NCBI RefSeq assembly: GCF_003001955.1
Contig: NZ_PVNH01000004.1
Coordinates: 310,001-374,000 of the forward strand
From: Prauserella shujinwangii
GTDB taxonomy: Bacteria; Actinomycetota; Actinomycetes; Mycobacteriales; Pseudonocardiaceae
Length of the DNA stretch: 64,000 bases
Reading direction: 5' to 3'
Shown: piece after piece, positions 60,688 to 64,000 of the stretch
Numbering within the stretch: position 1 is the stretch's first letter
How the letters are laid out: each line of letters begins with the position of its first letter
The notes under the pieces: generated by a model
What the model was told of the DNA's origin: nothing
The model's input: the letters and a program-made list of their open reading frames with translations, nothing else
The model's database searches: none
Made by a program: the position numbers and the translations under genes

Positions 60688-61911
60688 ATGACCAGAGCGG
60701 ATGTGCGGGAGCCTGTCGAGCTGCGGCCCGAGTTCTTCCAGGACGCGCACGCGATGTCCCGGTTGCTGCGCACCGAGGCGCCGGTGCGGCCGGTGCTCAT
60801 GCCGCGTGGGCTGCGGGCGTGGCTGGTGACCGGGTACGCCGACGCGAAGGCGCTGCTGGCGGATCCGCGCCTGAGCAAGGACAGCGAGCGCGCGCAGCAC
60901 GTCTTCGAACGCAGGCTGACGGCGACGGCGGTGCGGTCGACGCCGATGTCGCGGTCGCTGGCCGCGCACATGCTGAACACGGACCCGCCCGACCACACCC
61001 GGTTGCGCAAGCTCGTCAACAAGGCGTTCACGGCGCGCACGGTGGCGCGGCTGCGGCCGCGGATCGAGGAGATCACCGACCGGCTGCTCGACGACATGGC
61101 CGGAGCTGGGGAGGCCGACCTGCTGACGGCACTGGCGTTCCCGCTGCCGATCACGGTGATCTGCGAGCTGCTCGGCGTTCCGGACGACGCGCGCGACGAC
61201 TTCCGCGCGTGGTCGAACACGATGCTCGACACCGCGACGCCCGAGCAGCTGCAGGAGGCGTCGGGAAAGATGGCGGCCTACCTGACCGAGCTGGTGGCGC
61301 GGAAGCGGGCCGAGCCGACCGACGACCTGCTGTCGGCGCTGGTGCACGCGACCGACGAGGGCGACGCGCTGTCGGAGCCGGAGCTGGTGTCGATGGCGTT
61401 CCTGCTGCTGGTGGCCGGGCACGAGACGACGGTGAACCTCATCGGCAACGGGGTGCTCGCGCTGCTGCGCCACCCCGACCAGCTCGCGGCGCTGCGGGCC
61501 GATCCGTCGCTGCTGCCGAACGCGGTGGAGGAGTTCCTGCGGTACGACAGCCCGATCCATCTGGCGACGCTGCGGTTCACCACCGAGCCCGTCCGCGTCG
61601 GCGACGTCGAGATCCCGGCCGACGAGTTCGTCCTGATCTCGTTGCTCGCCGCCAACCGGGACGACGATCGCTTTCCCGACCCGGACCGGCTGGACGTCAC
61701 CCGGAAGGCGGGTGGGCACCTCGCGTTCGGGCACGGCATCCACTTCTGCGTGGGCGCGCCGCTGGCCCGGCTGGAGGCGGAGGTGGCGGTCGGCAGGCTG
61801 CTGGAGCGGTTCCCCGCTCTGCGGCTCGCCGCGGAGCCGGACACGCTGCGCTGGCGGGACAGCTCCCTGATCCACGGCCTGGAAACCCTTCCCGTCCTCA
61901 CCGGACAGTGA
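60688..61911 (+). CDS. Cytochrome P450, CYP107-like
   Basis: 407 residues from ATG 60688. Oxygen-binding I-helix LLVAGHETTVNLIG, the ExxR motif in NAVEEFLRY, heme loop FGHGIHFCVGAPLARLE with Cys354. Typical soluble bacterial P450 that oxidises small molecules with ferredoxin help; no ferredoxin gene adjoins it. The substrate is unknown. Its stop codon lies inside palindrome copy 5. Confidence 0.92.
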   Translation: MTRADVREPVELRPEFFQDAHAMSRLLRTEAPVRPVLMPRGLRAWLVTGYADAKALLADPRLSKDSERAQHVFERRLTATAVRSTPMSRSLAAHMLNTDPPDHTRLRKLVNKAFTARTVARLRPRIEEITDRLLDDMAGAGEADLLTALAFPLPITVICELLGVPDDARDDFRAWSNTMLDTATPEQLQEASGKMAAYLTELVARKRAEPTDDLLSALVHATDEGDALSEPELVSMAFLLLVAGHETTVNLIGNGVLALLRHPDQLAALRADPSLLPNAVEEFLRYDSPIHLATLRFTTEPVRVGDVEIPADEFVLISLLAANRDDDRFPDPDRLDVTRKAGGHLAFGHGIHFCVGAPLARLEAEVAVGRLLERFPALRLAAEPDTLRWRDSSLIHGLETLPVLTGQ

Positions 61912-61956
61912 ATGGCACATCGCCTGCGTCCAACGCAGGCGATGTGCCATTCACTG
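61906..61956. repeat. Nested palindrome, family copy 5
   Basis: Perfect 24-nt arms (61906-61929 and 61933-61956) with a CCA loop; begins within the last codon of the P450 gene (CAGTGA includes the stop). Shares the CAGTGAATGGCACATCGC variant with copy 3. Marks the end of the conserved block; the McrB-type gene starts 136 nt later. Confidence 0.75.
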
Positions 61957-62092: not shown

Positions 62093-64000
62093 ATGGCTGA
62101 CACGGTCCGCATCGCACGGTTGCTGCGCGCTTGCATGGAGGTGCTTCGGGACGCCGGCAAGCCGACGCACGGACGAGAGGTCCTGCGGCAGGTTGCCGAG
62201 CGGGTATCGCCCACACCTTACGAGCAGGAGTACGTTGGCACCGGTGCCCAGCAACAGCCGCGTTGGGAAAACCACCTGCGCTGGTACACCGGAGACGCGG
62301 CGACCGTCGGCTGGTTGACCAAGCGGGATGGTCTGTGGGAGCTGACCGAGGCCGGAGAGACCGCCCTCGACGTCTACGGCGATGAGCAGCTGGCCGCCGA
62401 GCTCAAACGACGGTACGGCGATATTCGACGGCAACGAGCAGAGGCCGCCAGGAAGCTCGAAGGTACCGAACGGGTGATCGCCCGCATGTTGAGCGTGGTC
62501 GAACCCGGCTTCTGGACCTCCTACGAAGACCTGGCCGAACTTGCCGGCGTGTCCCCGGAGACGATCGGCCATTACCTGGCAGGCGCGAGCAGTCGTATCG
62601 CGGGCGAACACCGACTCGCGTTCGCCGACGGAAGGCTGCCGTCCGAAGAGTTTCTCAACTTCCGGCAGCGGGGTACCGATCCGGCCGCCAGACTGCGGTC
62701 CGAGGGTGTCGAGTTCGACGACACAGGCCGTCCGTCACAGACCCAGCGGATGACTGCGGTCGAGATCGAGGCCAGGTTGTCCGAAATGGACGACGACGAA
62801 CCCGACGAGTCACCGACGACTCGCGCCTGGTTGGTCCGCGGGTCCGCAGTGGACGGCCGCGACCTGGTGCCCGTGTGGCAGGAGAGGGGGTCTGTCTCTC
62901 TTGCCGCGTCGAGTCTCCGTCCGGTCACACCTCCGGTTTCCCGGTCGGAGCTGAAGAGTGTCGTCGAAGAGGACTATCAGCACAAGTCCTACGCCGCACG
63001 CAACGCGAAGCTGGACGAGTTCGACGCCTTCTGCAACCGCATGCGGATAGGTGACTTCGTGCTGACCACCAGCCAGGGCAAAGCCTACGTCGGCCACATC
63101 ACGGGAGAAGCCATCTATGCCGCCTCCTCGGACAACAGGTCCAATCTCCGACGTAAGGTCAGATGGCTGAACACTACCCAACCGGTACCGTTCAGCAACT
63201 TGCCCCGGCCGCTGCCCGCCAAACTGCACAGTCAGGCTGACGTGGTCGAGCTGACCGAGGACATGGCCGCGATCGAACGGCTCATCCACGGCCTGGGCGT
63301 GACGCTGGCCCCCTCGCAGACCGAGTCGCCGGGACCACGGTCGTTCCCTGCCGTGACCTCGGATATGGCGGAGGAGCTGCTGCTCGACCGGCACTGGCTG
63401 CAACGGCAGGTCGATCTCCTGCGGGAGCGCAAGCAGCTGATCTTCTACGGTCCACCCGGCACCGGGAAGACCTACCTGGCATGTGCGTTCGCCGACAAAC
63501 TGGCTGACCCCAGCGCGATCAAGCTCGTGCAGTTCCACCCTTCGTACACCTACGAGGACTTCTTCGAGGGCTTTCGCCCGGTGCCCGGCGGATCCGGCAA
63601 GCTGGAGTTCGATCTACGACCGGGGCCACTGCGTGACCTCGTCGATGCGGCCCGAGCGAACCCGACCGAGCCGTACTTCCTCATTATCGACGAGATCAAC
63701 CGGGCGAATCTCCCGAAGGTGTTCGGTGAGCTGTACTTCTCGCTGGAGTACAGGGATCGGCCGATCAGCCTGATGTACTCAACCGATTCGAACTTCACGT
63801 TGCCGGAGAACCTGTTCGTCATCGGCACGATGAACACCGCCGACCGATCGATCACGCAACTCGACGCGGCGATTCGTCGGCGGTTCGCGTTCGTCGAGCT
63901 GCACCCAGATCAGCCGCCCGTCGCTGACCTGCTTGCGCGATGGCTCGAACGGCTGGACAAGGAGGGAGGGCTCGAACACCATCGCGACGCACCGGCTGTG
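62093..64000 (+). CDS. McrB-type AAA+ GTPase with Mrr_N, alkyltransferase-like and EVE-like N-terminal modules (partial, runs off the window)
   Basis: Open frame of 636 codons from ATG 62093 (AGGGGG 6 nt ahead) to the window end with no stop. Residues ~1-115 form an Mrr_N-type winged helix (opening MADTVRIARLLRACMEVLRD; ends WELTEAGETALDVYGDEQLA). Residues ~122-235 match the MGMT/ATL DNA-binding fold (RVIARMLSVVEPGFWTSYED, then AELAGVSPETIGHYLAGASS, ASSRIAGEHRLAFADGRLP, LRSEGVEFDDTGRPSQTQRM), but the reactive Cys (PCHR) is Glu172 in GEHR. Residues ~245-400 look like an EVE/PUA-type reader (AWLVRGSAVDG; RIGDFVLTTSQGKAYVGHIT). Then Walker A GPPGTGKT (453-460), Walker B FLIIDEINR (Asp533/Glu534), and the McrB sensor MNTADRS (580-586) followed by LDAAIRRRF. 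Codons are less GC-ending than in the neighbours. Expected partner: McrC nuclease downstream, not visible. Confidence 0.88.
   Translation, partial: MADTVRIARLLRACMEVLRDAGKPTHGREVLRQVAERVSPTPYEQEYVGTGAQQQPRWENHLRWYTGDAATVGWLTKRDGLWELTEAGETALDVYGDEQLAAELKRRYGDIRRQRAEAARKLEGTERVIARMLSVVEPGFWTSYEDLAELAGVSPETIGHYLAGASSRIAGEHRLAFADGRLPSEEFLNFRQRGTDPAARLRSEGVEFDDTGRPSQTQRMTAVEIEARLSEMDDDEPDESPTTRAWLVRGSAVDGRDLVPVWQERGSVSLAASSLRPVTPPVSRSELKSVVEEDYQHKSYAARNAKLDEFDAFCNRMRIGDFVLTTSQGKAYVGHITGEAIYAASSDNRSNLRRKVRWLNTTQPVPFSNLPRPLPAKLHSQADVVELTEDMAAIERLIHGLGVTLAPSQTESPGPRSFPAVTSDMAEELLLDRHWLQRQVDLLRERKQLIFYGPPGTGKTYLACAFADKLADPSAIKLVQFHPSYTYEDFFEGFRPVPGGSGKLEFDLRPGPLRDLVDAARANPTEPYFLIIDEINRANLPKVFGELYFSLEYRDRPISLMYSTDSNFTLPENLFVIGTMNTADRSITQLDAAIRRRFAFVELHPDQPPVADLLARWLERLDKEGGLEHHRDAPAV

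Follow-up and report, generated by a model that had tools for sequence, protein, structure and literature searches.

An AGT/ATL-fold domain ahead of an McrB-type restriction motor in Prauserella shujinwangii, a putative exchangeable target-recognition module

Type IV restriction enzymes are characterised by their reader domains, which include SRA, EVE, YTH and DUF3578. As far as the available parts of the respective papers go, McrBC systems have been reported alongside DISARM-like operons (Bell 2024, PMC11090510), ARMADA operons have been described (Bell 2025, PMC12458937), and the MGMT family PF01035 has been noted in several GmrSD homologs, mainly from Streptomyces (Machnicka 2015, PMC4619093). 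The McrBC census of PMC11090510 gives Mrr_N among the aliases of McrB; its main text mentions neither alkyltransferase nor MGMT, and a fusion may appear in its supplements. According to the accessible portion of a review (PMC10779285), O6-alkylguanine alkyltransferases (AGTs) and alkyltransferase-like (ATL) proteins have in common a helix-turn-helix motif with an Arg finger, and a Tyr, and ATL proteins bind UvrA and UvrC. Here we describe an McrBC gene pair at the end of a 64,000-nucleotide stretch of Prauserella shujinwangii DNA (the window, bases 310001-374000 of a contig of the 6.1-Mb genome), in which the McrB motor is preceded by a predicted AGT/ATL-fold domain. We propose, at a probability of roughly 0.6, that the pair is a type IV McrBC cassette in which an Mrr_N domain and the ATL domain act as an exchangeable target-recognition pair before a constant EVE/YTH reader, sensing a phage modification other than O6-alkylguanine.

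The mcrB homolog lies on the forward strand, from position 62093 to the window's end at 64000 and on to a position equal to window 64222, as one stop-free frame of 709 aa. Its McrB-type AAA+ GTPase (from 63368 to 64000 and past the window) is identified by Pfam, with AAA_5 at residues 449-598 (E 9.9e-18), and by its motifs, Walker A GPPGTGKT (residues 453-460, 63449-63472), Walker B IIDEINR (residues 531-537, 63683-63703) and the signature MNTADRS (residues 580-586, 63830-63850). The McrC/PD-(D/E)XK partner that the initial annotation of the window expected past 64000 starts 3 nt beyond the mcrB stop: mcrC, of 390 aa, occupies positions equal to window 64226-65398 (L003:8227-9399, where L numbers denote the loci compared here), matches PF10117 in a Pfam scan (E 2.7e-51) and has, by eye, PDL at 294 and DAKYK at 309, the PD-(D/E)xK pattern. 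The features by which McrBC is recognised (Walker A, Walker B, an MNTxD-type signature and an adjacent McrC nuclease) are all present in the pair.

Ahead of the motor, sequence comparison and structure models predict three serial modules for reading DNA or bases. The first, an Mrr_N winged helix at residues 9-92 (62117-62368), is found by Pfam as PF14338 (E 1.3e-9; 38.5 bits against a curated cut-off of 29.5). The second, at residues about 120-222 (62450-62758), is a catalytically dead winged helix of the AGT/ATL fold, assigned from homologs, profile comparison and structure models, and the third, at residues about 240-402 (62810-63298), is EVE/YTH-like, of the PUA superfamily, by structure model. 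The initial annotation had likewise read four modules in this one frame, and each has held, Mrr_N and AAA_5 by Pfam, the ATL fold by homologs, profiles and models, and the EVE/YTH-like domain by the model.

For the second module the AGT/ATL fold (the MGMT/ATL fold of the initial annotation) is supported by comparisons at several removes. A homologous McrB, L096, unites in one protein PF01035 above its cut-off (29.7 bits against 27), Mrr_N with 27.9 bits where the cut-off is 29.5, and AAA_5. The window's own domain matches, in the best case, the domain behind the GmrSD core with E 1e-14 and 41% identity over 109 aa, and one GmrSD homolog scanned by Pfam contains GmrSD_N, GmrSD_C and PF01035, the last just under its cut-off. 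Profile-profile comparison of 13 McrB-type domains with six canonical ATLs (L070, a near-copy of another, being left out) gave a probability of 97.1 and E 4.9e-11, against 0.1 for an Mrr_N profile used as control, and two structure models support an AGT C-terminal-domain fold at about residues 120-222. Among 17 McrBs with such a domain (ATL-McrBs), scanned by Pfam under E limits that differed between scans (5, 0.05, 0.01, 10), PF01035 was listed in four (L095 as L168, L096, L136, L088), once above its cut-off, and Mrr_N in 13, the four without it being L009, L091, L092 and L134.

The third module, at residues 240-402, takes an EVE/YTH-like PUA-superfamily fold in the structure model, and Trp246, Trp262 and Trp358, candidate members of an aromatic base cage, are invariant in 12 aligned sequences of the domain. 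BLAST with the window's copy matches every one of the 22 ATL-McrBs; the set's 65 other proteins, some of whose frames end at the locus edge, gave no match. The domain is the constant element over McrBs whose N-termini differ. A second McrBC of the same genome (contig C1, L004:8232-11275) has the same EVE/YTH domain, with DUF4357 as its N-terminal module, and sits in a DISARM/ARMADA-like island beside SNF2- and UvrD-type helicases. Two larger McrBs, L136 (115-2685) and L128 (133-2769), have Mrr_N, ATL and GTPase; the N-terminal stretch of L136 matches PADLOC PDC-S02 (E 1.8e-52) and looks EVE-like by eye, and L136 may hold two EVE-type domains.

The architecture recurs in other genomes, as the initial annotation had suggested it might. 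Assigned by locus class, ATL-McrBs occur in at least 14 of 390 genomes of a family sample, the window's own included, and in at least 8 of 394 of a class sample, both lower bounds, since only the best 30 places of each search were taken; the five loci found by a contig scan of genomes, which used one strict pattern, are a lower bound as well. With an McrB-only profile, 11 of 396 genomes of a phylum sample matched, and among the 10 loci taken the GTPase motif was seen only in the window's own protein, several frames ending at the locus edge. McrC comes after McrB in all six other ATL-McrB loci with flanking sequence and is 34-51% identical to the window's McrC; in L079 (Actinophytocola) an ATPase-like gene stands between the two. 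Genome G332, placed in the host's family, has the L079 domain as well. A helicase gene near McrBC in L072 and L073 matches PADLOC DpdE over its full length (E 1e-304 and 5e-290); these are SNF2-type helicases, and the name DpdE is that of a component of the 7-deazapurine-in-DNA system. L072 also has a methylase that matches DrmMI, and L079 a DruE/DrmA-like helicase and a methylase. Such neighbours agree with the published DISARM-like/ARMADA association. An ATL-domain search of IMG/VR viral contigs gave 285 stretches that fit the pattern, none of them confirmed; residues 1-246 had no match in phage records and two partial, weak matches in plasmids.

What the domain could read was examined in an alignment of 87 distinct ATL-domain sequences, namely 22 from McrBs, 43 of the GmrSD class (41 confirmed by BLAST, L058 and L135 not), 9 stand-alone, 7 canonical ATLs, 5 PDC-S11-like and one from L122; classes were set by length, motif and locus list, with the best-scoring loci first, and the counts are not prevalences. 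No sequence of the 87 has Cys at the catalytic position. Canonical ATLs have Trp there (7/7), and the 22 McrBs have Ala (5), Ser (5), Trp (4), Gly (3), His (2), Thr (2) or, in the window protein alone, Glu (Glu172). The Arg finger, kept in all seven canonical ATLs and in seven of nine stand-alone proteins, is present in 3 of 43 GmrSD-class sequences, none of the five PDC-S11-like ones, not in L122, and in one McrB of 22; the position is acidic in ten McrBs (7 Glu, 3 Asp), and in the window protein it is Glu156. At the position of the flipping Tyr, nine McrBs have Tyr (Tyr144 in the window McrB) and five Phe. In the pocket region the Arg after the His is found in 22 of 22 McrBs (Arg174 in the window McrB) and the His itself in 15. 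Stand-alone ATL-fold proteins L051, L052, L055-L057, L059 and L061 (of a 125-aa type, some frames being longer) keep the Arg finger and have Ala at the Cys position.

A sign that the N-terminal modules may be exchanged comes from a pair of relatives with nearly the same motor. The McrBs of L079 and L095 are 95% identical in the GTPase and 79% in the EVE/YTH domain, against 48% in Mrr_N and 40% in the ATL domain, and when the two genes are compared in 30-codon windows, 42-69% of nucleotides agree as far as residue about 238 and 69-93% from residue 239 onward, an apparent break read off the identity table. The ATL domains of L095 and L122/L167 share 60% identity. In a GTPase tree of 34 McrBs (22 with ATL, 12 without; L007 was put in manually and L017, being partial, was left out) the distribution of ATL takes four changes, at least three of them forced by well supported branches. 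A constant EVE/YTH domain and GTPase with differing Mrr_N-ATL parts is the pattern expected of a target-recognition cassette before a constant reader and motor.

Other proteins carry the fold in other settings. L122 (L167:5969-7879) is a 636-aa protein with no GTPase motif; its start resembles Mrr_N but scores under the cut-off (14.2 bits), and PF01035 is above cut-off; its C-terminal part has a weak HEPN_RiboL-PSP match (E 0.074) and, by eye, an R....H pattern, and from these matches the protein is possibly an Mrr_N-ATL reader pair on another, RNase-type effector. L062, L133, L137, L138 and L139 (446-483 aa) have the ATL-fold domain at the C-terminus; L139 matches the PADLOC candidate PDC-S11 (E 1e-47), the other four match its N-terminal part at 44-86%, and L062 has a weak NucS_C match in Pfam.

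In the reading that we prefer, McrB would be, by homology, a GTP-driven motor and McrC its PD-(D/E)xK nuclease. The EVE/YTH domain would serve as the constant modified-base reader of this McrB group, and the Mrr_N-ATL pair as the exchangeable cassette that adds or changes specificity. The ATL module would use the DNA-binding face of the AGT fold without the canonical Arg-finger flipping of O6-alkylguanine, and would probably sense another phage DNA modification, perhaps along with sequence; binding would license McrB assembly and translocation, upon which McrC would cut the phage DNA.

Several points weigh against this proposal. Pfam gives no PF01035 match in the window McrB up to E 5, the McrB-only profile finds Atl1 as its best PDB sequence with a weak E of 0.014 and unrelated winged helices close behind, and Foldseek with the ATL domain alone reaches an AGT/ATL match at E 0.0058 at best. 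The EVE/YTH assignment comes from the structure model: neither family was found by Pfam in any of 12 sequences scanned, the window protein among them, and a profile of the domain matched nothing among PDB sequences. The first structure model had a predicted template modelling score (pTM) of 0.41 from an alignment of 6 rows and does not fix the arrangement of the domains. Fast divergence instead of replacement could also explain the low ATL identity between L079 and L095. Finally, the DNA-contact residues of AGT and ATL proteins are mostly gone in the McrB domain, and base reading may be lost altogether.

In the alternative that survives best, though we consider it improbable, the EVE/YTH domain would be the sole modification reader. 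The Mrr_N and ATL winged helices would then do no more than favour certain sequences or bind DNA non-specifically, as a target-recognition domain of type I does. The constancy of the EVE/YTH domain over McrBs with different N-termini and the loss of most base-flipping residues from the ATL domain favour it. Plain DNA binding, however, would need none of what the pocket keeps, an Arg in every McrB, a His in 15 of 22 and a Trp in four distant ones, and the 43 GmrSD-class and 5 PDC-S11-like ATL fusions have no EVE/YTH match by BLAST, many of their frames ending at the locus edge.

That the ATL domain flips or recognises O6-alkylguanine or a like lesion and sends McrBC to alkylated DNA, close to what the initial annotation had in mind when it pointed to base flipping by ATL domains, we regard as very unlikely. 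The fold is the same, the catalytic Cys is lost as in ATLs and Tyr144 is kept; yet Glu156 replaces the finger (Arg in 1 of 22) and Glu172 the pocket Trp (4 of 22), so the McrB version has the fold and fails two ATL features, which makes such flipping unlikely on the aligned residues. The host, moreover, already has ordinary genes of these families elsewhere in its genome, two of AGT type with the motif PCHR and one of ATL type with PWHR, and cutting an alkylated chromosome would presumably hurt it. A protein-protein module that recruits a repair protein such as UvrA or aids assembly, and reads no DNA, is suggested by the binding of ATL proteins to UvrA and UvrC (in the available part of PMC10779285) and by the acidic finger position (7 Glu and 3 Asp of 22), but has little to commend it, as the ATL domain comes after an Mrr_N-like winged helix (Mrr_N in 13 of the 17 scanned) and the strong divergence of the Mrr_N-ATL pair between McrBs of near-identical motor is easier to reconcile with a changing target than with a partner that stays the same.

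There is also a wider and more tentative idea, on balance doubtful: the AGT/ATL repair fold might be a general phage-DNA sensor in Actinomycetota, without its chemistry or Arg finger, reading bulky modifications other than O6-alkylguanine and swapped among McrBC, GmrSD, PDC-S11-like and HEPN-type proteins in the manner of type I target-recognition domains. If an AGT-fold reader on McrB is real, it would extend the known reader classes by one for which a structural template already exists, and would indicate which phage modifications to test. L079 and L095, with near-identical motors and different cassettes, offer a direct test of whether residues 1-235 set the target range; should they do so, re-programming of restriction specificity might follow.

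The genomic setting bears on how the pair arrived. By eye, mcrBC has a cytochrome P450-like gene before it and a bioA-like gene after it, with no helicase or methylase cassette among the flanking genes. In one genome of the same genus (G580) the P450 and bioA genes adjoin and the 3.6 kb holding both mcr genes is absent, which marks the pair as a cassette of two genes standing by itself, either gained in this genome or lost from the other. The guanine-plus-cytosine content of the insert, 64.4% against 74.3% and 72.6% on its two sides, favours gain, and mcrBC is probably a horizontally acquired two-gene type IV restriction cassette. Directly after the P450 stop codon, at window 61910-61952, lies an intergenic palindrome of 43 bp (GAATGGCACAT...ATGTGCCATTC), a repeat with 21 genomic copies, against none for the reversed control pattern; it is perhaps a terminator or an element like the repetitive extragenic palindromes (REP).

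The initial annotation knew of no earlier description of this combination, and none was found in the literature searched. Full-text searches of the open literature returned no paper pairing McrB with MGMT and none in which alkyltransferase-like, phage and restriction endonuclease occur together; type IV restriction is mentioned alongside O6-methylguanine in the GmrSD study PMC4619093 and in an E. coli genome report, as far as the accessible text of these goes. The terms alkyltransferase and MGMT are absent from the main texts of PMC7641849 (on EVE), PMC12707154 (a review), PMC10853773 and PMC12839542. To call the gene the core of a new system, as was done at first, nevertheless goes too far: motor, nuclease and EVE-type reader are features of McrBC, and both DISARM-like McrBC (PMC11090510) and GmrSD with PF01035 (PMC4619093) already stand in the available parts of the record. 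Motor and nuclease are of known kinds, and it is the AGT-fold reader on this motor that appears to be undescribed.

Among known systems, the EVE-HNH enzyme VcaM4I, PH1033 (1wmm) and YTH domains have the same fold as residues 240-402, with no sequence match found. The ATL proteins (S. pombe Atl1, 3gx4 and 3gva; V. parahaemolyticus, 2kif) have the fold of the second module, lack the catalytic Cys as it does and keep the Tyr; the window's domain differs in having neither the Arg finger nor the pocket Trp and in being joined to a restriction motor. GmrSD proteins with PF01035 (PMC4619093, in its available part) have a homologous AGT-fold domain, which they place after the core, together with a different nuclease, and no Mrr_N was seen in them. 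The McrBC of DISARM-like (ARMADA) operons has in common with the window McrB the NxxD motif, and the likeness extends beyond the window to helicases of SNF2 or DruE/DrmA type by McrBC in L072, L073, L079 and the C1 paralog and to methylases in L072 and L079; the window's copy, in contrast, stands alone between P450 and bioA, and its kind of reader was not found in the accessible portions of PMC11090510 and PMC12458937. Close as well are the type IV McrBC systems (PDB 6hz4, 6ut6, 6ut3), with which the pair has in common the GTPase motifs, NxxD (by eye), the McrC partner and an N-terminal modified-base-reader fold, and to which the window McrB adds an Mrr_N and a predicted AGT/ATL-fold domain before that reader.
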